Positions 1,217 through 30,324 of a stretch of DNA of 64,000 nt are shown here, piece by piece; the stretch's first letter is position 1; each line of letters starts with the position of its first letter. The notes below the pieces were generated by a model. It did not search any database, was not told the DNA's origin, and saw only the letters and a program-made list of their open reading frames with translations. This DNA is from Pseudarthrobacter sp. BIM B-2242. Its GTDB lineage: Bacteria > Actinomycetota > Actinomycetes > Actinomycetales > Micrococcaceae. The stretch lies in contig NZ_CP061721.1 of the NCBI RefSeq assembly GCF_014764445.1, forward strand, positions 1,674,001 to 1,738,000, written 5' to 3'. Position numbers and translations under genes: made by a program.

Positions 1217-3010
1217 ATGGATGATTTCACTGCTCCGGACGTGCCCGGCTTTATGGTGGGACGGGTGCTGGGCAGAGGCGGAAGTTCAACCGTTTGGCTG
1301 GTCACCGAGGAAAGGTCCGGCCGCGACTTTGCGTTGAAATGCCTTGGCGTCAAACACGGCCGGCGGGCCGCCGATCCCTGGCCAGCGGGTGCAGCAGCAG
1401 ATGAGGGCCTCCGCCGGGAAATCCGGATCCTGTCCGTACTCGACCATCAGCATCTTATTAAGGCCCATGACGCCGTCAGGTTCACGCCGAAACCGGGGCC
1501 GGCAGGGACCGCGGAAACGGGCGCCGGCGGAATCGGCCTGCTGCTGGACTATGCGCCCGGCGGCTCGCTTGCAGAGCTTGTGGGAGGCCGGCGCAAACTT
1601 CCCGTGGGGGAGACGGTGACGGTGCTGACCCCTATCGCCCAGGTACTGGGCTACCTGCACGCCAAGGGTTTCACTCACGGCGATGTCTCGCCGGGAAATG
1701 TCCTGTTTACCGGGCACGGCAAACCGATGCTGTCCGACGTCGGCATTGCCAGGATGGTAGGCGACGCCGCGGCAGTGCCGGACTGCGGCACGGCTGGCTT
1801 TATGGACCCGGCCCCGGTGGACGCCATCCGGGCCGGACTCCAGCCGGAACGCGACGTGTACTCGCTGGCGGCGCTGGGGTGGTACTGCCTTACGGGTGAG
1901 CCGCCGCGCCGGACCGCGGAGCGGCCGCCCCTGTCCCTCCTCCTCCCGGATGTGCCGCCGGAGCTGGCCGCCGCCCTGGAGGCAGGCCTTAACGAGGACC
2001 GGCGGCTGCGGCCCGGTGCCGTGGAGCTGGCGACGGCGATCTACCGCAGCGCGCCACCCTTGCCCATAGATCTCGCGTCCTCCGTCCATGCCACCGTTAT
2101 CCCGCAGCTTCTGACCCGGCGTCGTGTCCCGGAACATCCCGAGGGGGCCGTCCGGAGCGGCCTGCGGGCCTGGGGACGCAGGCTGTCGACGTCGCGCTGG
2201 TCCGGGCTGGTCGGGGCGCGCCAGAAGCTGCCGTTCCCGGAAAGCGATAAGCCCGTGCCGCGGGGAAAGCACGCAGTGGTTCCGGGTGAAACGCGGCGGG
2301 CGAAGAACCTGGGACCCATGAAGCCCGGCGCTGAACCATCCGGGCCCGATCGCAGGAGCAATGTGGTGCCGAAGGCAGGGCAAAGGCGCGGGACGCTTCT
2401 GCTGGCGGCAGGCGCTGTGGCCGTGGCGGCCGGCACCATCTGGACGGCCGGCGCGTTTGGCCCGGGCGGACCGCTGGAAGGCCCGGCCGGGGCAGGACCA
2501 CAGATAGTCGGCACTGAGCTGGCGGACAGCACGCAGAGTGGTCCGGGCGGGAACACTGACGGGCCGGCGGCACCTGGCAATGCTGACACGGGGATTCCGG
2601 CAGCCGTCGCGGCGCAGCTCGGTTCGACTGACCCGGCCGAGGCAGTCCGCGCGCTGGCTGCCGTGCGGTCGCTGGCGTTCAGCTCCGGCAGGCTGGAGCT
2701 CCTGGACCTTGTTAACGCGCCGGGCTCCACGGCGGCCGCCGCCGATGCGCGGCTCAAAGACGAGCTGCAGGCATCCGGGCGGCTCCTGGCCGGTTTCTCC
2801 AGCACGGTCTCCAACATCGAGGTCGAGCAGGGACGTTCAGCCAGCCAGGCGGTAGTCGGCGTGACGTCGGCAACCTCGTCCTATGTGGAACAGGACAGTG
2901 CGGGCCAGGTGCTGGCCGCCGGCGCCCCTGGCACGGAACAGGTCCTTCGGCTCGTGCTCGTTTTCCTGGACGGGCAGTGGCGGATTACGGATGTTCTGCC
3001 AGGCTCCTGA
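1217..3010 (+). CDS. Membrane-anchored serine/threonine protein kinase with C-terminal extracytoplasmic region
   Basis: 597 aa. An N-terminal Hanks-type kinase domain covers about residues 10-270: glycine loop GRGGSSTVWLV, ATP lysine about K41 (FALKCLG), catalytic loop HGDVSPGN (D156, N161) in place of HRDLKPEN, and metal-binding DVG (D174) in place of DFG. The catalytic Lys, Asp, Asn and Asp are all kept, so activity is plausible despite the divergent loop. A basic and proline-rich juxtamembrane region follows, then one membrane segment near residues 390-412 and an Ala/Gly-rich outer domain of about 180 residues without PASTA repeats. The ligand and substrates are unknown. TAGACA lies 6 nt before the ATG, a weak leaderless-type -10 box. 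It ends 21 bp from the convergent gene at 3032. Confidence 0.85.
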   Translation: MDDFTAPDVPGFMVGRVLGRGGSSTVWLVTEERSGRDFALKCLGVKHGRRAADPWPAGAAADEGLRREIRILSVLDHQHLIKAHDAVRFTPKPGPAGTAETGAGGIGLLLDYAPGGSLAELVGGRRKLPVGETVTVLTPIAQVLGYLHAKGFTHGDVSPGNVLFTGHGKPMLSDVGIARMVGDAAAVPDCGTAGFMDPAPVDAIRAGLQPERDVYSLAALGWYCLTGEPPRRTAERPPLSLLLPDVPPELAAALEAGLNEDRRLRPGAVELATAIYRSAPPLPIDLASSVHATVIPQLLTRRRVPEHPEGAVRSGLRAWGRRLSTSRWSGLVGARQKLPFPESDKPVPRGKHAVVPGETRRAKNLGPMKPGAEPSGPDRRSNVVPKAGQRRGTLLLAAGAVAVAAGTIWTAGAFGPGGPLEGPAGAGPQIVGTELADSTQSGPGGNTDGPAAPGNADTGIPAAVAAQLGSTDPAEAVRALAAVRSLAFSSGRLELLDLVNAPGSTAAAADARLKDELQASGRLLAGFSSTVSNIEVEQGRSASQAVVGVTSATSSYVEQDSAGQVLAAGAPGTEQVLRLVLVFLDGQWRITDVLPGS

Positions 3011-3031
3011 CGGTCCGGCCCCGGGCTTCGC

Positions 3032-3922
3032 TCAGCGGGCGGCCACCCACGCCGCAGCTTGGGTGAGGGACGGATGCTGCCACTGGAATCCGGCGGCTTC
3101 CAGCACTGCCGGCTCCATCCGTTTGCCGGACAGGAGGAGTTCGTTGGCCATTTTGCCCATGACCAGCCGGAGTGCCGGTGCCGGCACCCGAAAGAAGGCC
3201 GGACGGTGCAGCGCCGAGGCCAGCGCTCCGATCAATGAGTTCACGTCCGCTTCCTGGGGGGCGCACACGTTCACCGGGCCGTGAATGTCCGAGCGTGCCA
3301 GGAACTCAAAGACGGCGCAGATGTCCGGCAAAGTAATCCAGGGCCAATACTGCCTGCCATTGCCCAGGGGACCGCCTACGCCGAGCCGAAGCAGCGGCAA
3401 CAGCCGCCCCATGGAGCCCCCCGAGCGGCTGAGGACAATCCCGGAACGGGTGGTGACCACGCGGACGCCGGCCGGCGCCTCGTGCGCGGCGGCCTCCCAC
3501 TCCACGCAGATCCGGGCGAGGATGCCGGAACCCGGCGAGGCATCTTCGCGAAGCTGCGCGGACCCCGAATCGCCGTAGAAATCGGCCCCGGACTGGCTGA
3601 TGAATGTCCGCGGCGGGTTTTCGAGCTTACCCATGGCCTCAACCAGGGTGCCCGTTGCCCTGAGCCGTGAACTGAGCAGCTCCCTGATCCGGGAACTGGT
3701 CCAGGGACGGTCGCCTATCCCAGCTCCTGACAGGTTGATCACGGCGTCAGCGCCGGCCAGCGCCGCCGGGTCGAGGCGGTGAGCTTCGGGATCCCACTGT
3801 ATTTCAGCGGGAGAGGCGGGCTTGCGGCGAACCAGGGTGACTACCTCGTGGCCGGCCTGCCGCAGCGAAGCTGACAACGGGGTCCCGATCAGGCCGGAGG
3901 CGCCGGAGATGACGATGTGCAT
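3032..3922 (-). CDS. TIGR01777-type NAD(P)-dependent epimerase (SDR superfamily, DUF1731)
   Basis: 296 aa from the chosen ATG. The Rossmann nucleotide-binding motif GASGLIGTPL sits at the very N terminus (MHIVISGASGLIG), which supports this start; an in-frame GTG at 3946 would add eight residues and has no support. The C-terminal RVPAPALRLVMGKMANELLLSG region is typical of the DUF1731 part of the family. The substrate is unknown; the relative YfcH is also uncharacterised. It converges with the kinase gene and is transcribed divergently from the tricorn gene at 4005, so the 82-bp gap holds both promoters. Confidence 0.88.
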   Translation of the reverse strand: MHIVISGASGLIGTPLSASLRQAGHEVVTLVRRKPASPAEIQWDPEAHRLDPAALAGADAVINLSGAGIGDRPWTSSRIRELLSSRLRATGTLVEAMGKLENPPRTFISQSGADFYGDSGSAQLREDASPGSGILARICVEWEAAAHEAPAGVRVVTTRSGIVLSRSGGSMGRLLPLLRLGVGGPLGNGRQYWPWITLPDICAVFEFLARSDIHGPVNVCAPQEADVNSLIGALASALHRPAFFRVPAPALRLVMGKMANELLLSGKRMEPAVLEAAGFQWQHPSLTQAAAWVAAR

Positions 3923-8612: not shown

Positions 8613-8682
8613 GCCAGACCCTTCTACGGCATGTAGCAAAGCCACGCAGGCGGGTGCCGCGAAAACCGGACGGGACAACAAA

Positions 8683-22148: not shown

Positions 22149-22208
22149 ATCGACTGCTCCGCAAACGCCCTTTTGAGCGCTCAAAAGGGCGCTTGCGGAG
22201 CAATCGAT
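22149..22208. repeat. 60-bp near-perfect palindrome, possible REP-like element or terminator
   Basis: Two 30-nt arms (22149-22178 and 22179-22208) meet with no loop at GAGCGCTC. There are only two mismatches, and both become G-U wobbles in a minus-strand transcript, so the hairpin is fully paired for mRNA of the M56 gene that ends at 22242. It lies between convergent genes. No T run follows, so it may be a repetitive extragenic palindrome and not a simple terminator. Confidence 0.7.
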
Positions 22209-22241
22209 GAGCCTCTGTGTCAGCCCAGCGGCCCGGCTGTG

Positions 22242-23225
22242 TCAGCCCAGCAGGCCGGGCACGATCAGTAGCGCCGTGGGCACGGCAAGGAGCAGGACGC
22301 AGCACGCCAGCACTGCCCCGCGGGCAATCGCAGACAGCGGGGGCCGGGGCGAGAGCAGCCGGCTGACGCGCGAAGCCGTGGTGCGGAACGAGTCCGAGCC
22401 GGTGACACCGGCCGCCGTTTCCAGTCCCTCCAGTGCAAGGCCGGCCTGGCCGCCGGGCGGAAAACCTCCGCCGGCTGAACCGCTGGCCACAATCGCGATT
22501 GCCTTGATGAGCGTTGCCTTGCTCTCAGTCTTCAGCGCTACGTCGTCGGCCAGCATCTCGATCAGTGAGTTGACTGATTCCTGGGCCAGCCGGGTGGTGG
22601 GAAGCCAGGGGAGTGCCTGACGCCAGGCCGCGAAGGCCCACAGCAGGAGGTGGTGGCGCTGGTTGAGGTGGGCATTCTCATGGCTGAGCACGGCCCGCAG
22701 TTCGGCCGGTTCAAGGGCGGCCATCAGGCCGTCCGAAAGCACAGTCACGGACCGTGCGCCGCCGGGCAGGCAATAGGCCACCGGTGAGTCGTGGCTGATC
22801 ACCACGGTGCCCGTCCCTTCCGCGGAAGGTGAGGCCAGGAGCGCCAGCAGTTCACGGTGCCGCCGCCGCTGCCGCTGGATCTTGTAATACGTCAGCAGCA
22901 GGGTGAAGACGAGGTGTGCGGTCAGCAGGGCTGCTGCGGAGAGGGCAAACAGGTGCCAGAAACCAAGGGCCGTGGTGGGCGCGTTAAAGAGCACCATTCC
23001 CGCGAGTGCCCGCAAGCCGGCGATGAGGTTGTCGCCCACCGGCTCGAGGCCGTAAACCAGCATGGCCCCGATCATGGACAGCCCGCCGGCGAGGGCAATG
23101 GCCTGCCAGAGGAGCATCGCGGTAAACGGCGACCGGGCAGGCCACTGGGCACGGGAAAGAAAGACAGGCACTGGCCACGCCAGGACTATCGCAAGGACCG
23201 CCAGCAGGTATGAGGTCCAGAACAT
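22242..23225 (-). CDS. M56 family membrane metallopeptidase (BlaR1-like, no sensor domain)
   Basis: 327 aa. About three membrane segments in the first 115 residues, then a cytoplasmic zinc-protease domain with HENAH (H182-E183-H186) and a likely third ligand in SLIEMLADD, and a last membrane segment near the C terminus. In BlaR1/MecR1 this protease domain triggers loss of the BlaI/MecI repressor; here no penicillin-binding sensor domain is present, so the signal is unknown. The start lies 7 bp after the blaI stop, so the two are co-transcribed. Confidence 0.88.
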   Translation of the reverse strand: MFWTSYLLAVLAIVLAWPVPVFLSRAQWPARSPFTAMLLWQAIALAGGLSMIGAMLVYGLEPVGDNLIAGLRALAGMVLFNAPTTALGFWHLFALSAAALLTAHLVFTLLLTYYKIQRQRRRHRELLALLASPSAEGTGTVVISHDSPVAYCLPGGARSVTVLSDGLMAALEPAELRAVLSHENAHLNQRHHLLLWAFAAWRQALPWLPTTRLAQESVNSLIEMLADDVALKTESKATLIKAIAIVASGSAGGGFPPGGQAGLALEGLETAAGVTGSDSFRTTASRVSRLLSPRPPLSAIARGAVLACCVLLLAVPTALLIVPGLLG

Positions 23226-23231
23226 GGCCCG

Positions 23232-23618
23232 CTAGACGTGGCCGAGCAGTTTGCGCAGTGTTTCGGCTTCACTTTCCGTAACGGACCCGATGAACCGTGC
23301 CAGGACCGCCTCACGGTCCGGGGCGGAGCCCAGGACTTCGTGCATCAGCTCGGCAGTGTGTTCTTCCCGGCTGGAAACAGCCTGGTAGCGGTGCGGCCTG
23401 GTACCGCGCTCCCGCTCAACGAGGCCCTTCTTCTCCAGCCGTGAGAGGACGGTGAGCACCGTGGTGACGGCAAGTTCCTTGCCTTCATGGCCTGCGGCGT
23501 CCCCTTTTGCCTCGGTGGTTGTTGCCAGTTTGTCACGCAGGGTATTTGCGGTGGCTGCTTCGTGGCCCGCCCAGAGCAGATCCATCACTGCCCGTTCCAG
23601 TTCCCCAAGACTTGCCAT
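23232..23618 (-). CDS. blaI: BlaI/MecI/CopY family transcriptional repressor
   Basis: 128 aa. The N-terminal winged helix (LGELERAVMDLLWAG, then VTTVLTVLSRLEKKGLVERE) and the C-terminal dimerisation and cleavage part (VLARFIGSVTESEAETLRKLL) match the BlaI family. The start has AAGGA upstream. It is followed by the M56 protease gene, the usual partner. Divergently placed is cydAB-cydDC, and the gap holds three palindromes of BlaI-operator type, so it likely represses both its own operon and cyd. Confidence 0.92.
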   Translation of the reverse strand: MASLGELERAVMDLLWAGHEAATANTLRDKLATTTEAKGDAAGHEGKELAVTTVLTVLSRLEKKGLVERERGTRPHRYQAVSSREEHTAELMHEVLGSAPDREAVLARFIGSVTESEAETLRKLLGHV

Positions 23619-23721
23619 TGCCTACATCCTTCTTATTTCCGCATCCGGCGGCTGGTCGCCGCGGTGCCTGCACATGATCGCTACAGATACATAACCAAAT
23701 TTACCTGTTTTTTTGCTGAGT

Positions 23722-23738
23722 TTCTACGTACGGTAGAA
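23722..23738. promoter_or_regulatory. BlaI-type operator, site 1
   Basis: TTCTAC-N5-GTAGAA, perfect 6-bp half sites, 104 bp upstream of the blaI start. It is placed to allow autoregulation of blaI-M56. Confidence 0.75.
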
Positions 23739-23790
23739 CACCTGGCGCGCCGCCGCCTTGTGGAAGCCGTTGTGAGCTGGAACTCTTGGT

Positions 23791-23820
23791 TTAACACTGC
23801 CCCCGGCGGTGTTCTACACT
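23791..23820 (+). promoter_or_regulatory. Predicted cydA promoter
   Basis: TTAACA (23791-23796), 18-nt spacer, TACACT (23815-23820). The -10 hexamer lies inside operator site 2, and the expected start of transcription falls just before site 3. Seen in the sequence; the assignment is inference. Confidence 0.6.
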
Positions 23821-23828
23821 CTGTAGAA
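23812..23828. promoter_or_regulatory. BlaI-type operator, site 2 (over the cydA -10 box)
   Basis: TTCTAC-N5-GTAGAA with perfect half sites. It overlaps the predicted cydA -10 box and is 24 bp centre to centre from site 3, so binding would block polymerase. Confidence 0.78.
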
Positions 23829-23835
23829 GTTATTG

Positions 23836-23852
23836 TTCTACAAACCGTAGAA
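23836..23852. promoter_or_regulatory. BlaI-type operator, site 3
   Basis: TTCTAC-N5-GTAGAA with perfect half sites, 28 bp before the cydA GTG and just downstream of the predicted transcription start. Together with site 2 it suggests paired dimers. Confidence 0.78.
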
Positions 23853-23880
23853 GAGTTGAACGCCAACCCGAGGGACTGCT

Positions 23881-25482
23881 GTGGAAGCTCTGGAAATCGC
23901 ACGCTGGCAATTCGGCATCACCACCGTCTACCACTTCATGATGGTGCCCCTCACCATCGGCCTTGGCCTGGTGGTGGCCGTGATGCAGACAATCTGGCAT
24001 CGCACCGGCAAGGACGAATACCTCAGGATGACCAAGTTCTGGGGCAAGCTGTTCCTGATCAACTTCATCATGGGCGTAGCCACCGGCATCGTCCAGGAGT
24101 TCCAGTTCGGCATGGCCTGGAGCGAATACAGCCGGTTCGTGGGTGATGTCTTCGGGGCTCCGCTCGCCCTCGAATCGCTGTTGGCGTTCTTCGTTGAGTC
24201 CACCTTCCTGGGACTGTGGATCTTCGGCTGGAAGCAGCTGAAGCCCGCCATCCACCTCGCCTGCCTGTGGATCGCGGTCATCGGCTCGGTCTTTTCCGCC
24301 TACTTCATCATCGTGGCCAACAGTTGGATGCAGCACCCCGTCGGCGCAGAAATCATCGACGGGCGGCCCGTCATGACGGACGCCTGGGCCGTCTTCACCA
24401 ACAACACCGCATTGGTGGCCTTCCCGCACACGCTGATGGGAGCGCTGGCCGTAGCCGGCGGCTTCCTCCTGGGCATCGCCTGGTACCACCTCTGGCGCCG
24501 GCGCAAGGACGGCATCGACACCATCGGGCCCGACGGCAAGGTTGTTCCCGGGGAAGCGGCCATTCCCGGCCGCGACCGGACCGACTACAACGTCTGGATC
24601 CGCTCACTGCGGATCGGTGCGGTCGTCGCCATGATCTCCTTCGCCGGAACCTCCCTCACGGGTGACCTGCAGGGAAAGCTCATGTTCGAGCAGCAGCCCA
24701 TGAAGATGGCCGCGGCCGAGGGCGCCTGCCATGACGGCACCGGTTTCTCGGTCCTCAGCGTCGGAAACCTGGGGTCCAAGAACTGCGATGACATCGTTGC
24801 CGTGATCGAGATCCCCGGCATCCTGTCCTTCCTCGCCAACGGCGACTTCACCACCGAGGTCAGGGGCGTCAACGGTCTCCTGGACCAGTACAAGGCCGAT
24901 TACGGAACGCACCTGCCGGACAGCCCGATCTACGGCGAGCGGGCCGGCCAGGAAATCGAGTACGTCCCGGTCATGGAAGTTACGTACTGGGGCTTCCGGA
25001 TGATGATCGGCTTCGGCGGCCTGGCCGCGCTGGCCGCCCTGGTGGCGCTCTGGCTGACGAGGAAGGGCACCGTCCCCGCATCGCCGTGGCTGATGCGCCT
25101 GGCAGTGTTCGGCATCCTGGCCCCCTTCGGCGCCAACGCCGCGGGCTGGATCTTTACCGAAATGGGCCGGCAGCCCTTCGTGGTGGCACCGAACCCGGAC
25201 CTGAACGGCATTGACCAGGTGTTTATGTTCACCGCGGCCGCAGTGTCGCCCGGAGTGTCGGCCGGTGAACTGCTGACCTCCCTGATCGTGCTGACCCTCG
25301 TTTATGCCGCTCTGCTGGTGGTGGAGGTCAAACTCCTCGTCACGTACGTCCGCGGCGGCGTGGTGTCCGCCATGCCGGAACTGGCGCATGCCCCCGTGGA
25401 CGAAAACGAGGACGCCACGCCGGGACCCGATGGCACCGGCACCACAAAGTCCGCGGACGACGTCCTGGCATTCGCCTACTAA
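23881..25482 (+). CDS. cydA: Cytochrome bd quinol oxidase subunit I
   Basis: 533 aa membrane protein, the haem-bearing subunit of the high-affinity bd terminal oxidase. The N-terminal helix has RWQFGITTVYHFMMVPLTIG with the haem b595 ligand histidine at about H18; WMQHPVGAE and AFPHTLMGAL (second haem histidine) follow, and EMGRQPF is the GRQP-type motif of the family. The quinol-binding loop is short. GTG start. First gene of cydA-cydB-cydDC and probably controlled by BlaI through the three upstream operators. Confidence 0.96.
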   Translation: MEALEIARWQFGITTVYHFMMVPLTIGLGLVVAVMQTIWHRTGKDEYLRMTKFWGKLFLINFIMGVATGIVQEFQFGMAWSEYSRFVGDVFGAPLALESLLAFFVESTFLGLWIFGWKQLKPAIHLACLWIAVIGSVFSAYFIIVANSWMQHPVGAEIIDGRPVMTDAWAVFTNNTALVAFPHTLMGALAVAGGFLLGIAWYHLWRRRKDGIDTIGPDGKVVPGEAAIPGRDRTDYNVWIRSLRIGAVVAMISFAGTSLTGDLQGKLMFEQQPMKMAAAEGACHDGTGFSVLSVGNLGSKNCDDIVAVIEIPGILSFLANGDFTTEVRGVNGLLDQYKADYGTHLPDSPIYGERAGQEIEYVPVMEVTYWGFRMMIGFGGLAALAALVALWLTRKGTVPASPWLMRLAVFGILAPFGANAAGWIFTEMGRQPFVVAPNPDLNGIDQVFMFTAAAVSPGVSAGELLTSLIVLTLVYAALLVVEVKLLVTYVRGGVVSAMPELAHAPVDENEDATPGPDGTGTTKSADDVLAFAY

Positions 25483-25503
25483 GAAGAGCAGAGGATATTC
25501 GAG

Positions 25504-26553
25504 ATGGAACTGCTGCCCACTATCTGGTTCATCGTCATCGCGGTGCTCTGGACCGGCTACCTCTTCCTTGAAGGCTTTGACCTCGGCGTAGGAATGCTGA
25601 TGAAGCTGTTCGCCCGGAACAATACCGAGCGCAGGGTACTGCTGAACACTGTTGGTCCGGTCTGGGACGGCAACGAGGTCTGGTTGATCACGGCCGGGGC
25701 CGCCACTTTCGCGGCATTCCCGCTCTGGTACGCATCGCTGTTTTCCGCCCTCTACCTCCCGCTTCTGGTGGTGCTGGTGGCCCTCATTTTCCGTGCGGTG
25801 GCTTTCGAATACCGCGGGAAGGTAGACAGCGCCAGCTGGCGCACCCGCTGGGACTGGGCCATTGCGCTGGGTTCCTTCTTCGCCGCGTTCGGTGTGGGCG
25901 CTGCCCTTGCACTGACCACCACCGGCCTGCCGCTGAACGCCAACGGCGACCGTGAAGGCGGTGCCATGGCCTGGTTCAGCGGATACGCCGTCCTGGGCGG
26001 GCTTGCCGTGGTGGGGTTCTCCCTGCTGCATGCCCTGGCATTCCTGGCCCTGAAGACCGACGGCGACGTGCGGCACCGTGCCCGCGCCTGGTTTGTCCGG
26101 CTCCTGCCGGTCCTGTTGCTTCCCATCGCGGCCTGGGCACTGACCATCCAGTTCCTGGAAGGCAAGCCGTGGACGTGGGCGGCGGTGCTTGTTGCGGTCG
26201 TGGCGGCCGTGGCCTCCTGGTTCCTGGCACGCCGTGGAGCTGAAGGCAGGGCATTCATCGCGATGGGGGCCTTCCTCCTCCTGGGCAGCGCGTCCATCTT
26301 CGGCGCGGTGTTCCCGGTGGTGCTGCCCTCGACGCTTGACCCGGCGTTCGACCTGACCATCGCCAACGCCTCGTCCTCCGACTACACGCTCGGACTGATG
26401 AGCGTGGTGGCCGCCGTGGGCCTGCCCCTGGTGATCGTCTACCAGGCATGGACGTACTGGGTGTTCCGCCGCCGTGTCAGCGCCGCCCACATTCCCGCCG
26501 CCCACAGTTTCCTGCCGGCCATCGCCGTCAGGGCCTTCACCACAAAGGGCTGA
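25504..26553 (+). CDS. cydB: Cytochrome bd quinol oxidase subunit II
   Basis: 349 aa with about eight membrane helices. The N terminus TIWFIVIAVLWTGYLFLEGF and the loop VGPVWDGNEVWLITAG are characteristic of CydB. AGAGGA lies upstream of the ATG, 21 bp after cydA. It pairs with CydA to form the oxidase. Confidence 0.96.
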   Translation: MELLPTIWFIVIAVLWTGYLFLEGFDLGVGMLMKLFARNNTERRVLLNTVGPVWDGNEVWLITAGAATFAAFPLWYASLFSALYLPLLVVLVALIFRAVAFEYRGKVDSASWRTRWDWAIALGSFFAAFGVGAALALTTTGLPLNANGDREGGAMAWFSGYAVLGGLAVVGFSLLHALAFLALKTDGDVRHRARAWFVRLLPVLLLPIAAWALTIQFLEGKPWTWAAVLVAVVAAVASWFLARRGAEGRAFIAMGAFLLLGSASIFGAVFPVVLPSTLDPAFDLTIANASSSDYTLGLMSVVAAVGLPLVIVYQAWTYWVFRRRVSAAHIPAAHSFLPAIAVRAFTTKG

Positions 26554-26559
26554 CCCGGT

Positions 26560-29500
26560 TTGCGCCCGGATTTTCCTGCCGGACCGGCCACCCGTTCCGC
26601 CATCTACTGGCTCGGCCTGCTCGCAGCACTGAAGGCCCTCTCCCTGGTCCTGATGGGGCAGGCGGTGGCTGCGATGCTCGCCGGCCTGGCCACCGGCAAC
26701 GGCTCGTGGCAGGACCAGCTGACCTGGGGGCTGGCCGGCGTTGTCCTGAGGTCCGCCACGGTGTGGGCGCAGGGCATCGCCGCGCGCCGCGCAGCCCTGG
26801 GCATCAAGGAGGAACTCCGGTCAGAGCTGCTGGCACGCGCCCTGCGGAACGGTGCCCGCAGCACCGGTCCTGCCGACGGCGGCCTGGCGGTCCTGGCCAC
26901 AAGGGGACTTGATGCGCTGGACAGCTATTACACGCAGTTCCTTCCGGCCCTCGTGAACTGTGCCACGATCCCGCTGCTGCTCGGGGCGCGTATCCTCTTC
27001 GCTGACTGGGTCAGCGCCGTGGTGGTTGTGCTGACGGTTCCGCTCGTCCCGCTGTTTATGGTGCTGATCGGCCGGTACACCGAGGACCACGTCCGCGAAG
27101 CCCAGGAAACACTCACCCGCCTGTCCGCCCACATGCTGGAGCTGGCCAAGGGACTGCCCGTCCTGGTGGGCCTGGGCCGTGCCACATCGCAGCGCAAGGC
27201 CCTTGAGGAGATTTCCGAGGAATACCGTTCCCGGACCATGGGGACGCTGCGCACCGCGTTCCTGTCCGCGCTCGCCCTGGAACTCATAGCCACCATCTCG
27301 GTGGCTGTGGTGGCCGTTTTCATCGGCGTCCGCCTGGTGCACGGTGACATGGCCCTCGAAGCAGGCCTGCTGGCCCTCATCCTGGCCCCGGACTGCTACC
27401 TTCCGCTCCGTGAGCTGGGCACCGCGCACCACGCCAGCGATGACGGCCGGGCTGCGCTCGCCGCCACGCGGGCGGTCACCGATGCGCCCGAACCGCAGCC
27501 GCTGCCTGCCGATGGTGTGGAACCGGCCGCGGATGCCGCGGCTGCCGTTGCAGCGCACGACGACGGCGGCAGCCTCTCCGCTCCCGCCCCGCCGGGAGTG
27601 GTGGTCACCGGCCTCACGGTCACGTATGCAGGACGGTCCGCTGCCGCCGTCGGGCCCCTGAGCTTTACCGCCCCGCTGGGTCAGATCACGGCGCTGGACG
27701 GGCCCAGCGGTGCGGGCAAGAGCACTGTCCTTGGTGTGTTGGCCGGAACCGTGGGCGACGGCGGCGGAACCGCTGTGGCCGGGCGTCTTGCCGGACTGGA
27801 CCGTGAGTCCGTTGCATGGGTTCCGCAGCACCCGGTCATGGTCGCGGAATCCGTCCTCGACGAGATCATCCTGTACGTGGGTGGCGGAACAGGCAACCGC
27901 CGGGCAGGAGCTGCTGCGGCCGGCGCGGACGAGCGGCTGGTTGAGGAAACCGCCCGGGAATGCCTGGCCGCGGCTGCTGCTGGCCACCTTGCCCGCCACC
28001 ATCCGGCTGAACTGAGCCCGGGGGAGCTGCGCCGCGTGGCGCTGGCGCGTGGGCTGGCGCGGCTGCGTGCGGGGGCCACCGTCCTGCTGCTTGACGAGCC
28101 GACCGCCCACCTGGACGGCGCGTCGGCGGCGCTGGTGCAGGACTCAATCCGTGCGCTCCGGGGACAGGTCACTGTCATCCTGGTGGCCCACGATCAACAG
28201 ACCCGCGAACTGGCTGACCATGTGGTGCCCGTCTCTGCCCGCGGCGTCACGGCACCGTCCGGCGTCACCGGAATGCCGGGCCCCGCCGGGCAGCACCCGG
28301 GCCATGACAGTGCAGCGGAGGATGGCTCCGGGAACCATCACAGCCCCGCGGCTGCCCCGCACGCACTCCAGCCGGTGGCCGGTACACGGGCTGTGCGTAC
28401 AAACCGGCTTCTGGCCGGGCTCCTGGCACCCGTCGCGGGCCGGTTCACCGCCGCAGCGGTCGTCGGGACCTTTGCCGCCATCTTCGCCGTGGCCCTGTCC
28501 GGGCTCTCCGGCTGGCTCATCATCAGGGCCAGCGAGCAGCCACCCATCCTGTACCTGCTCACGGCCATCGTCGGCGTGCGGTTCTTCGGCATCGGCCGGG
28601 CCGTCCTGCGCTACTGGGAACGGCTCCTGCTCCATGACGCAGTCTTTGGGGCCCTCACCCGGCTCCGGGGCCGGCTGTGGGAATCCCTGAGCCGGAAGGC
28701 GTTGTCGCTGCGGCGGCTCCTGCAGGGCGGCAACGTCCTCGGCACGGTGATTGACGACGTCGATACCGTCCGGGACCTGCTTCCGCGCGTTGTGCTGCCG
28801 CCCGTCACGGCGCTCGCCGTGGGCGGCTCTGCGCTCCTGGCCACAACGCTGGTGGCCCCGGCCGCACTGCCGGCCGTTGCCATCGCGGCCGGACTGAGCC
28901 TGATAGGGGCGCCCCTGGCGGCGCTGTGGGGCGACCGCCGCTCGGCCACCGCTGAACAGCGGCTGCGGGCCGGCGTCCTTCGCCGCACCTCCGCCGCCCT
29001 GGACGCGAGGGCTGAACTGCACGCCAACGGCATCGCCGCGGCAGTGCTTGCCGCGCTCCGTGCGGAGGACCGTGCGGCCACCAAAGCCTCGCAGCGCTCT
29101 GCCTGGGCCGAAGGCCTCGGCCAGGCCATCACGGTGGCGGCCTGCGGAACGGCGGCCCTGGCCGCGGCCGTACTGACCGCGCCCCAGGTCATCGCCGGCA
29201 CCATGGAGCCCGCCACGGCTGCGGTCATCGTGCTCCTGCAGCTGGCCCTGGTGGAACCCTACGCCGCCATGACGACGGCGGTCCGCCAGTACCCCGCGCT
29301 GCGTGCAGTCATGCGGAGGGTGGCCGAGTCCGGCGTGCTGGATGCCGGCGCTGCGGATTCCAGAACCTCGGATTCCCGAACTTCGGGTTCGGGTACAGGG
29401 GATTCGGGGACAGCTGCCTCCGGCGCAGCGGACGCCGCGGAAGTCGACGGTATCCATGCGGTTCCGTCCCGCCCGGGTGCGGTTCCCGGCGTGGAGCTGA

Positions 29501-30324
29501 CACAGCTCAGTGCGGCGTGGCCGGGCGGTGCGCCGGTGTTCGCCGGTGTGTCGGCCACGGCCGGGCCAGGCAGCTGGCTGGCAGTCACCGGACCGTCCGG
29601 CTCCGGCAAGTCCACCCTGCTCGCCGTATTGCTCGGCTTCCTTCCGGCCTCGACCGGCCGGGCCGCGGTGACCGGCACGGCAGCCTGGTGCCCGCAGGAG
29701 GCACACCTGTTCGATTCGACCCTTCGCGGCAACCTGCTGCTGGGCCTCCCGGCGGGCAGGAAGGACACTTCGTCCGGTGGCGCCACCGCCGGCGGAGGCT
29801 CCGGCACAGCGGGCACCGGCACGCGAGGCTCCGGCACAGCGGGCACCGGCACGCGAGGCTCCGGCACAGCGGGCACCGGCACGCGAGGCTCCGGCACAGC
29901 GGGCACCGGCACGCCGGGCTCCGGGACTCCCGGCAGCGGTGACGCCGAGCTGGCAGCTGCGTTGACCGCCGTCGGCCTCGATGCCCTGGTGTCGCGGCTG
30001 CCGGACGGGCTGGACACCCGGATCGGTCCGGGCGGCTCGTTCCTCAGCGGCGGCGAACGGCAGCGGCTTGCCGTGGCCCGGACCATCCTGACAGGCGCCG
30101 AGGTGATCCTGCTGGACGAGCCCACGGCCCACCTGGACGCGGAAGCAGGCCGGGACATGCTGGCTGACCTGCGCGCCGGCCTCAAGGACCGGACGGTGGT
30201 TATGGTCACCCACAACCCGGCCGACATCAACCCGGCCGACACGCTCCTGGACTTATCCGCAGCCTCACTGACCGGTGCCGCGGGCAAGGCGCGGCTTCTG
30301 CAACCGGAAGAGAGCGTGCGCTAG
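26560..30324 (+). CDS. cydDC: Fused CydD-CydC thiol/haem ABC exporter
   Basis: 1254 aa joining both half-transporters in one chain, as known in Streptomyces. CydDC exports reduced thiols or handles haem and is needed to assemble the bd oxidase. Half 1: membrane domain to about residue 300, then an ATPase with GPSGAGKSTVL, LSPGELRRVALARG and VLLLDEPTAHLD. Half 2: membrane domain from about 620, then GPSGSGKSTLL, Q-loop CPQEAHLF, signature LSGGERQRLAV and VILLDEPTAHLD. Between the Q-loop and signature of half 2 there is a Gly/Thr/Ser-rich insert made of tandem decapeptides (GSGTAGTGTR). TTG start 7 nt after the cydB stop. A second Ser/Thr/Gly-rich linker precedes the second ATPase domain. Confidence 0.93.
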   Translation: MRPDFPAGPATRSAIYWLGLLAALKALSLVLMGQAVAAMLAGLATGNGSWQDQLTWGLAGVVLRSATVWAQGIAARRAALGIKEELRSELLARALRNGARSTGPADGGLAVLATRGLDALDSYYTQFLPALVNCATIPLLLGARILFADWVSAVVVVLTVPLVPLFMVLIGRYTEDHVREAQETLTRLSAHMLELAKGLPVLVGLGRATSQRKALEEISEEYRSRTMGTLRTAFLSALALELIATISVAVVAVFIGVRLVHGDMALEAGLLALILAPDCYLPLRELGTAHHASDDGRAALAATRAVTDAPEPQPLPADGVEPAADAAAAVAAHDDGGSLSAPAPPGVVVTGLTVTYAGRSAAAVGPLSFTAPLGQITALDGPSGAGKSTVLGVLAGTVGDGGGTAVAGRLAGLDRESVAWVPQHPVMVAESVLDEIILYVGGGTGNRRAGAAAAGADERLVEETARECLAAAAAGHLARHHPAELSPGELRRVALARGLARLRAGATVLLLDEPTAHLDGASAALVQDSIRALRGQVTVILVAHDQQTRELADHVVPVSARGVTAPSGVTGMPGPAGQHPGHDSAAEDGSGNHHSPAAAPHALQPVAGTRAVRTNRLLAGLLAPVAGRFTAAAVVGTFAAIFAVALSGLSGWLIIRASEQPPILYLLTAIVGVRFFGIGRAVLRYWERLLLHDAVFGALTRLRGRLWESLSRKALSLRRLLQGGNVLGTVIDDVDTVRDLLPRVVLPPVTALAVGGSALLATTLVAPAALPAVAIAAGLSLIGAPLAALWGDRRSATAEQRLRAGVLRRTSAALDARAELHANGIAAAVLAALRAEDRAATKASQRSAWAEGLGQAITVAACGTAALAAAVLTAPQVIAGTMEPATAAVIVLLQLALVEPYAAMTTAVRQYPALRAVMRRVAESGVLDAGAADSRTSDSRTSGSGTGDSGTAASGAADAAEVDGIHAVPSRPGAVPGVELTQLSAAWPGGAPVFAGVSATAGPGSWLAVTGPSGSGKSTLLAVLLGFLPASTGRAAVTGTAAWCPQEAHLFDSTLRGNLLLGLPAGRKDTSSGGATAGGGSGTAGTGTRGSGTAGTGTRGSGTAGTGTRGSGTAGTGTPGSGTPGSGDAELAAALTAVGLDALVSRLPDGLDTRIGPGGSFLSGGERQRLAVARTILTGAEVILLDEPTAHLDAEAGRDMLADLRAGLKDRTVVMVTHNPADINPADTLLDLSAASLTGAAGKARLLQPEESVR
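29797..29916 (+). repeat. 30-bp tandem repeat (four copies) inside cydDC
   Basis: Four head-to-tail 30-bp units at 29797-29826, 29827-29856, 29857-29886 and 29887-29916. The first three are identical; the fourth differs at its last codon. Each unit encodes GSGTAGTGTR. It lies in frame in the helical subdomain of the second ATPase domain. Exact identity suggests recent expansion and possible copy-number variation between strains. Confidence 0.95.

Follow-up and report, generated by a model that had tools for sequence, protein, structure and literature searches.

In the BlaR1-BlaI and MecR1-MecI systems of staphylococci and bacilli, a winged-helix repressor adjoins a membrane gluzincin peptidase, and the operators are autoregulated. 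A pair of the same kind is found in the window analyzed here, i.e., the 64,000-nucleotide (nt) stretch of Pseudarthrobacter sp. BIM B-2242 spanning NZ_CP061721.1 1,674,001-1,738,000, in which blaI and a peptidase gene face the cytochrome bd oxidase genes across three copies of the palindrome TTCTAC-N5-GTAGAA. Unlike in those systems, the peptidase has no penicillin-binding sensor domain, and no beta-lactamase or PBP2a (penicillin-binding protein 2a) gene stands at the sites assigned in this study.

The BlaI (Rv1846c)-BlaR (Rv1845c) pair of Mycobacterium tuberculosis resembles the present one in its sensorless protease partner and in its targets: cyd is stated as a BlaI target in the available text of PMC5473688, and that of PMC12565901 describes gel shifts with BlaI on Rv1303, which is co-transcribed with ATP synthase, and on ftsQ. 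The ATP synthase target, which an earlier, sequence-only reading of this DNA had mentioned, is thus in print, and respiratory targets of BlaI are therefore not new in kind. The trigger of the M. tuberculosis pair is described as unknown (available text of PMC5473688). The present system differs in that blaI faces cydA, with two putative operators for cydA and one for blaI, and, as far as the accessible M. tuberculosis reports go, in that its predicted targets also include heme synthesis, cytochrome c maturation, aa3 oxidase, and assembly genes; the full target list of Sala 2009 lies outside this comparison. That study is reportedly the source for cyd as a target of M. tuberculosis BlaI. HrrSA of Corynebacterium glutamicum is a two-component system, unlike the BlaI-protease pair. 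It works alike in that one regulator ties heme to the ranking of terminal oxidases (available text of PMC7337898). The features of the locus are as follows.

22242..23225, minus strand: M56/M48-like membrane zinc peptidase (BlaR1-like without the sensor domain), 327 amino acids (aa), HENAH motif; HExxH and E223 conserved
23232..23618, minus strand: blaI, BlaI/MecI-type winged-helix repressor, 128 aa; PF03965 match
23722..23738, no strand: putative operator 1 (blaI side), TTCTACGTACGGTAGAA; exact palindrome, which remains with blaI where cydA has moved away
23791..23820, plus strand: predicted cydA promoter, TTAACA-18-TACACT; consensus match only
23812..23828, no strand: putative operator 2, TTCTACACTCTGTAGAA, over the predicted cydA -10; exact palindrome
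23836..23852, no strand: putative operator 3, TTCTACAAACCGTAGAA, directly past the expected cydA transcription start; exact palindrome
23881..25482, plus strand: cydA, cytochrome bd oxidase subunit I; domain matches
25504..26553, plus strand: cydB, cytochrome bd oxidase subunit II; domain matches
26560..30324, plus strand: cydDC, single-frame CydD-CydC fusion, ATP-binding cassette (ABC) exporter; domain matches

The two minus-strand genes are separated by 6 nt, and the three cyd genes run in the opposite direction. BlaI scored 75.6 bits against the PF03965 Penicillinase_R profile, above the cut-off of 22.6. Its sole match among solved structures was chain 2g9w (E of 7e-16), labelled 'conserved hypothetical protein', which we take to be Rv1846c. 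The genome contains a single BlaI match (E <=1e-5) and a single CydA match; therefore, paralogues do not confuse the assignment.

Palindromes between blaI and cydA

Besides the three exact copies of the palindrome, the window holds one with a single mismatch at 8622-8638, downstream of a sucB-like gene (named by eye). At two or fewer mismatches, 0.26 copies are expected per window, and four copies were reached in 0 of 100 shuffles, which confirms that the three palindromes between blaI and cydA are real and far above chance. The coordinates given for them in the sequence-only reading hold. Its placement of site 2 over the cydA -10 box, site 3 past the start, and site 1 on the blaI side also agrees with the positions, the promoter being a consensus match only: the predicted -10 (TACACT, 23815-23820) falls within site 2, with the -35 (TTAACA) at 23791; site 3 begins 16 nt past this -10; and site 1 begins 104 nt upstream of the blaI ATG.

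A search of the whole 4.78-Mb genome, as that reading had proposed, yielded nine exact copies, versus none of a reversed control pattern. At two or fewer mismatches, there were 74 copies, fewer than of the control (174); degenerate copies are therefore no proof alone and were accepted only if conserved. Accordingly, the degenerate sites at sucC (locus L011) and in L012, L013, L016, L017, and L019 are not claimed on mismatch count alone. The gene after mca (L012) has an exact-site counterpart at a like position in genome G012 (L226; likeness judged by eye), and no respiratory gene follows the palindrome after ctaG (L017) within the 2 kb inspected.

Conservation at cyd in relatives, a further proposed check, was examined in 80 loci of genomes labelled Arthrobacter, Pseudarthrobacter, Paenarthrobacter, or Micrococcaceae. 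Three exact palindromes are present in 77 of these, and L100 has two exact and one mismatched. In the remaining two (L066 and L069), the fetched stretch lacks cydA, yet one palindrome is kept at blaI. The distance from blaI to cydA, usually ~260 nt, is 3.8 kb in L063 and 3.5 kb in L068; in both, site 1 stays at blaI and sites 2 and 3 at cydA. An alignment of 77 intergenic stretches (the window and 76 loci with a short gap) gave 99.8 to 100% identity for the half-sites; 51, 87, and 40% for the spacers; and 53.5% for the remaining gap. The best-conserved spacer is that of site 2, which carries the predicted -10 TACACT. This pattern, together with the -10 in site 2, is that of a candidate repressor-operator layout.

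The survey of the window's family, Micrococcaceae judging by its named members, covered 120 genomes from 32 genera. BlaI was found in 108 and the exact palindrome also in 108, but the sets differ. A close BlaI (E <=1e-28) is encoded in 101 genomes, which hold 554 palindrome copies (1 to 15 each; reversed control, 45). In seven genomes whose BlaI is distant or truncated, there are 11 copies, 6 of them in G087 (partial BlaI match), and the 12 genomes without BlaI hold a single exact copy in total (G059). Upstream of cydA, at least two exact sites are present in 30 of the 30 best CydA loci. Among 13 further BlaI-bearing genomes, chosen as distant, unlinked, or weak (G035 is common to both sets), the cydA site is exact in 12 and has one mismatch in G090. 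The site is thus exact in 41 of the 42 distinct BlaI-bearing genomes examined, the remaining one being the single mismatch; 60 other BlaI-bearing genomes with CydA lie outside this count. None of the seven BlaI-less genomes that keep cydA has a site there (best, 3 to 6 mismatches). Where cydA is unlinked from blaI, two exact sites are kept in G035 and G004, and one in G011, G041, and G088, whose BlaI is distant. At the promoter of blaI itself, all 30 family loci compared have an exact site within 400 nt upstream; among 28 loci from outside the family, the site is perfect in 8, imperfect (by a loose criterion) in 11, and absent from 9.

At residue 55 of the BlaI recognition helix, all 111 aligned family sequences (including a few duplicates) have Leu, as do all 9 proteins from outside the family that go with TTCTAC-type sites; the 10 that go with TACTAC-type sites all have Met. 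Pooled, the TTCTAC group has Leu throughout (120 of 120) and the TACTAC group Met throughout (10 of 10), counts that are not independent, because the grouping is our own, several sites are imperfect, and the proteins are related. These data suggest that Leu or Met at residue 55 may constitute a recognition code for TTCTAC or TACTAC operators. A further ~12 residues (33-44) are present in family BlaI proteins and absent from most BlaI in other parts of the class.

It is very improbable that the palindromes belong to another regulator, form RNA hairpins, or arose by chance. A TGTGA-type block stands beside the site at the hemQ promoters of the window's genus, and one exact copy occurs in a BlaI-less genome, as such an explanation would have it. 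Against this, palindrome and BlaI are jointly absent, every one of the 30 family loci has the palindrome at blaI, the sites vary with the recognition helix, and copies far outnumber the control. Hairpins and chance were rejected because of the palindrome's link to BlaI. The sequence-only reading had taken the palindromes for BlaI operators shared by blaI and cydA. Because they co-occur with BlaI, follow each gene in split pairs, are absent without BlaI, and vary with the helix, this role at both genes, and with it the BlaI-cyd link, is strongly supported by the comparative data. The outcome that would have refuted the sequence-only reading, relatives with the same gene order but no palindromes at cyd, was not observed.

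Two other repeats were seen near these genes. A near-perfect long inverted repeat (22151-22210), detected by eye between a gyrB-like gene and the protease gene, is perhaps a shared terminator, and the CydDC fusion contains in-frame tandem GSGTAGTGTR-like repeats (29797-29920).

Predicted targets beyond the bd oxidase

In 13 genomes of four genera (six genomes of the window's genus, five of genus g32, G008, and G012), we considered every exact site not belonging to the blaI-cyd locus, 67 in total. These genomes were selected because of complete listings of their site positions or, in the case of G008 and G012, because of many copies. Gene names are backed by Pfam or NCBIfam matches, except AtpI, which has no Pfam match and was named by its position before atpB. 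In total, 62 sites were assigned, and 37 of the 67 are at known respiratory, heme, copper, or nitric oxide (NO) genes; the five outside the assignment are in L187, L192, L199, L221 (where a DnaJ-C28-like protein follows), and L234. An exact site precedes hemQ in 13 of 13 genomes, 53 to 56 nt before the start in 12 of them. The same 13 of 13 holds for the gene of a small membrane protein of 120 to 140 aa (L010 [site 2820], L160, L168, L171, L176, L179, L183, L184, L189, L194, L197, L216, and L223). The copy of this protein in the window's genome has no Pfam or NCBIfam match; it has 525 homologues, and the named ones among the matches listed are nearly all 'hypothetical protein'.

Other assigned exact sites are found at (i) cytochrome c maturation genes (eight sites, six recognized by the histidine phosphatase gene that comes first; L009 is the one locus in which the reading extended over the operon, with its TlpA-like thioredoxin and ResB); (ii) the flavohemoglobin gene hmp (six sites); (iii) the gene of a 115-aa membrane protein ~15 kb from blaI (all five g32 genomes; L181, L186, L188, L195, and L198); (iv) a PNPOx-family protein gene (four), ABC-ctaA (two), and ctaC (two); and (v) with one site each, atpI, hemA/hemE, copC, SURF1, sdhC, ctaB (UbiA family), isocitrate lyase or its divergent membrane gene, the gene after mca, and a lipoprotein gene. 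No beta-lactamase or penicillin-binding protein (PBP) gene is among the 62.

At six hemQ promoters (L008, L162, L166, L169, L175, and L180), a conserved TGTGA..T....CAC block, presumably CRP/GlxR-like, abuts the BlaI site, and a double control of heme synthesis by the two elements is possible. In L005, a gene for an Rrf2-family regulator (2794-3474; NsrR-like by eye) lies near hmp and the palindrome at site 2720; NO control and respiratory control may meet at hmp.

Promoters of ctaC and atpI were scanned with locus orientation taken into account. The ctaC promoter carries CTCTAC-N5-GTAGTA in 30 of the 30 nearest genomes. Of 30 further genomes with BlaI, 22 have a site with at most two mismatches there, and none of 10 BlaI-less genomes with CtaC has one. 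A one-mismatch TTCTAT-N5-GTAGAA precedes atpI in 26 of 30 genomes, and the four without it form a single genus (g31). Sites with at most two mismatches lie upstream of ctaE in 14 of 30 genomes (control, 0) and of qcrC in 11 of 30 (control, 1); neither site is present in this set's three BlaI-less members (G005, G014, and G033). Because the qcrC search window overlaps coding sequence, the bc1 complex is the least sure target.

BlaI and 5 to 15 sites are retained in six genomes without CydA (E <=1e-30; G012, G025, G053, G057, G089, and G107). Three of these belong to genus g12, which has the highest copy numbers (9 to 15) and whose other two genomes encode a distant CydA. The CydA-less G012 (L222-L235) has the most exact sites (15), including those at SURF1, ctaB, sdhC, and copC. 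The persistence of the regulon without CydA speaks against a simple oxidase switch.

In such a switch, control by BlaI would be confined to blaI-M56 and cydAB-cydDC, failure of the main oxidase would turn on the bd oxidase, and the other palindromes would be incidental. The operators are indeed strongest and most widely conserved at cydA, and seven genomes (G011, G041, G065, G088, G044, G061, and G103) have one exact copy each, located at cydA in 6 of the 6 looked at. Nevertheless, the invariant sites at hemQ and the small membrane protein, the ctaC and atpI sites kept across genera, and the CydA-less genomes make this explanation quite unlikely, and in its pure form it was rejected because of the wider regulon. 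The proposal of the sequence-only reading, a switch of terminal-oxidase choice, is thus too narrow: candidate operators also stand at aa3, ATP synthase, cytochrome c, heme, and, less surely, bc1 genes. The regulon looks like one for respiratory-chain assembly, much wider than the bd oxidase.

At the class level, 61 of the 118 genomes surveyed encode a BlaI homologue (E <=1e-8). Three further families have blaI facing cydA over an exact palindrome (G212, G224, G190, and G144). Of 14 BlaI-bearing class genomes, 13 encode CydA; when the 13 best class cydA promoters were compared with TWCTAC-N5-GTAGWA, six were exact, six had one mismatch, and G206 had two. Second cydA copies in G213, G159, and G228 have no site; that of G213 follows blaI in the same orientation at a distance of ~1.1 kb and might be transcribed from the blaI promoter. 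Exact sites precede hemE and copC-copD in G206 and G190 (CopD confirmed in G190 only), copC carries sites in G012, G206, and G190, and an exact site in G228 adjoins a Rieske protein gene. On this comparison, the putative blaI-cydA core is old, and the wide regulon is seen at the family level only.

A literature search returned no description of this Micrococcaceae regulon in its listings, with the targets and motif of Sala 2009 outside its scope, so that novelty is perhaps overstated. As far as the literature was searched, two proposals are new: a head-to-head blaI-M56/cydA module with a putative operator code across the class and an absence shared with BlaI, and a predicted regulon of heme, cytochrome, and aa3 assembly genes with the small membrane protein.

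Protease, signal, and proposed mechanism

Of 142 loci compared (some from one genome), 137 have the peptidase gene beside blaI and in the same orientation, and H182, E183, H186, and E223 are present in at least 95% of 138 aligned peptidases. The protein scored above the cut-off for PF01435 (M48), and 31 of 31 relatives match M56 at E <=0.01. Hydrophobic stretches lie near residues 10-17, 43-51, 98-104, and 304-318. The sequence-only reading had noted the lack of a penicillin-sensor domain; in agreement, Pfam detected neither such a domain nor any other beside the peptidase, which is followed by no more than one hydrophobic stretch at the C terminus. Comparison of its sequence with solved structures gave nothing significant. 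An AYCxPG motif shortly precedes HExxH, and its Cys152, found in at least 95% of the 138 proteins, is a candidate redox or metal-sensing residue.

Two other accounts concern the signal. BlaI itself might sense a ligand (heme, copper, or another metal), as CopY-type relatives do, the protease being accessory or unrelated. BlaI and the CopY/TcrY copper repressors belong to one fold family (weak TIGR02698 match), and the targets are heme and copper enzymes, with copC sites in three genomes. However, BlaI here scored 26 of 122 bits, far below the cut-off, and Cys occurs in only 1 of 139 aligned BlaI proteins, which leaves no thiol or CopY-like Cys metal site and makes a thiol switch in BlaI unlikely. 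Given also the HExxH protease that so regularly adjoins blaI, direct sensing is a minor possibility. Alternatively, protease and BlaI may answer cell-wall damage in a classical beta-lactam response, with the respiratory genes secondary. Family descent fits this, as do reports for M. tuberculosis that amoxicillin-clavulanate induces blaI-blaR and cydAB (available text of PMC5473688) and that BlaI also binds the ftsQ promoter (available text of PMC12565901). Since the protease has no sensor domain and the assigned sites include no beta-lactamase or PBP gene, we regard this account as unlikely.

In the mechanism that we propose instead, a BlaI dimer would bind TTCTAC-N5-GTAGAA operators and repress its own operon (blaI and the M56-like protease), the bd oxidase operon, and further genes from which the heme-copper respiratory chain is built: those for the synthesis of heme and cytochrome c, for subunits and assembly factors of the aa3 oxidase, for ATP synthase, and probably for bc1. 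Control would be graded: blaI-cydA has strong operators, in two or three perfect copies; hemQ, hmp, the cytochrome c maturation operon, and the small membrane protein gene each have one perfect copy; and those at ctaC, ctaE-qcr, and atp are weaker. Upon membrane or electron-transport impairment, the sensorless protease would cleave BlaI and overall respiratory capacity would rise. At ctaC, a conserved TAAG-CT block, a possible -10, runs into the palindrome; together with site 2 over the cydA -10, this makes repression by BlaI, the removal of which would raise the regulon, the most likely mode. Cleavage is suggested by the BlaR1 precedent, and the signal, lost electron-transport or cytochrome capacity, by the target genes. 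Relief by the protease had also been put forward in the sequence-only reading, with envelope stress as another signal that may act.

Several observations weigh against this mechanism. The ctaC site is missing in 8 of the 30 further BlaI-bearing genomes (G016, G110, G021, G061, G103, G011, G044, and G049), in which BlaI matches at E >1e-36; yet an equally distant BlaI (e.g., that of G043) goes with a kept site. The ctaE-qcr evidence is mixed, and 11 atp promoters outside the family showed no convincing BlaI-like site. Site assignment covers 13 of the 120 genomes, related genomes are not independent samples, and an exact palindrome occurs in one BlaI-less genome. The peptidase scored 21.9 bits against PF05569 (M56), below the cut-off of 31, and its AlphaFold model (mean predicted local distance difference test, 46; predicted template modeling score, 0.29) was too poor and was not used. 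Finally, repression of essential aa3 and ATP synthase genes would be odd, and control there might be partial or positive. With these points weighed, we consider it probable that the BlaI-protease pair controls a whole respiratory-chain regulon as proposed.

A broader hypothesis is more tentative, and we would place it somewhat short of probable. Oxidative phosphorylation across the actinobacterial class would have the sensorless BlaI-M56 pair as its ancestral master regulator, with blaI-M56 facing cydA as the conserved core of the system and the protease monitoring the electron-transport chain; beta-lactamase control would be a later side branch, and the small membrane protein a new respiratory component or the protease's missing signal partner.

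Respiratory control in Arthrobacter-related soil bacteria

From its predicted targets, BlaI looks like a master control of respiration in Arthrobacter-related soil bacteria. The conserved putative operator code, the target list, and the natural BlaI-less relatives make the question of the trigger directly testable in soil strains. If the mechanism is correct, one protease-repressor pair would coordinate heme supply, cytochrome assembly, both terminal oxidases, and ATP synthase, and the conserved small membrane protein would be flagged as a likely new part of the respiratory machinery. This would amount to control of respiration at the system level, bearing on tolerance to respiratory inhibitors.

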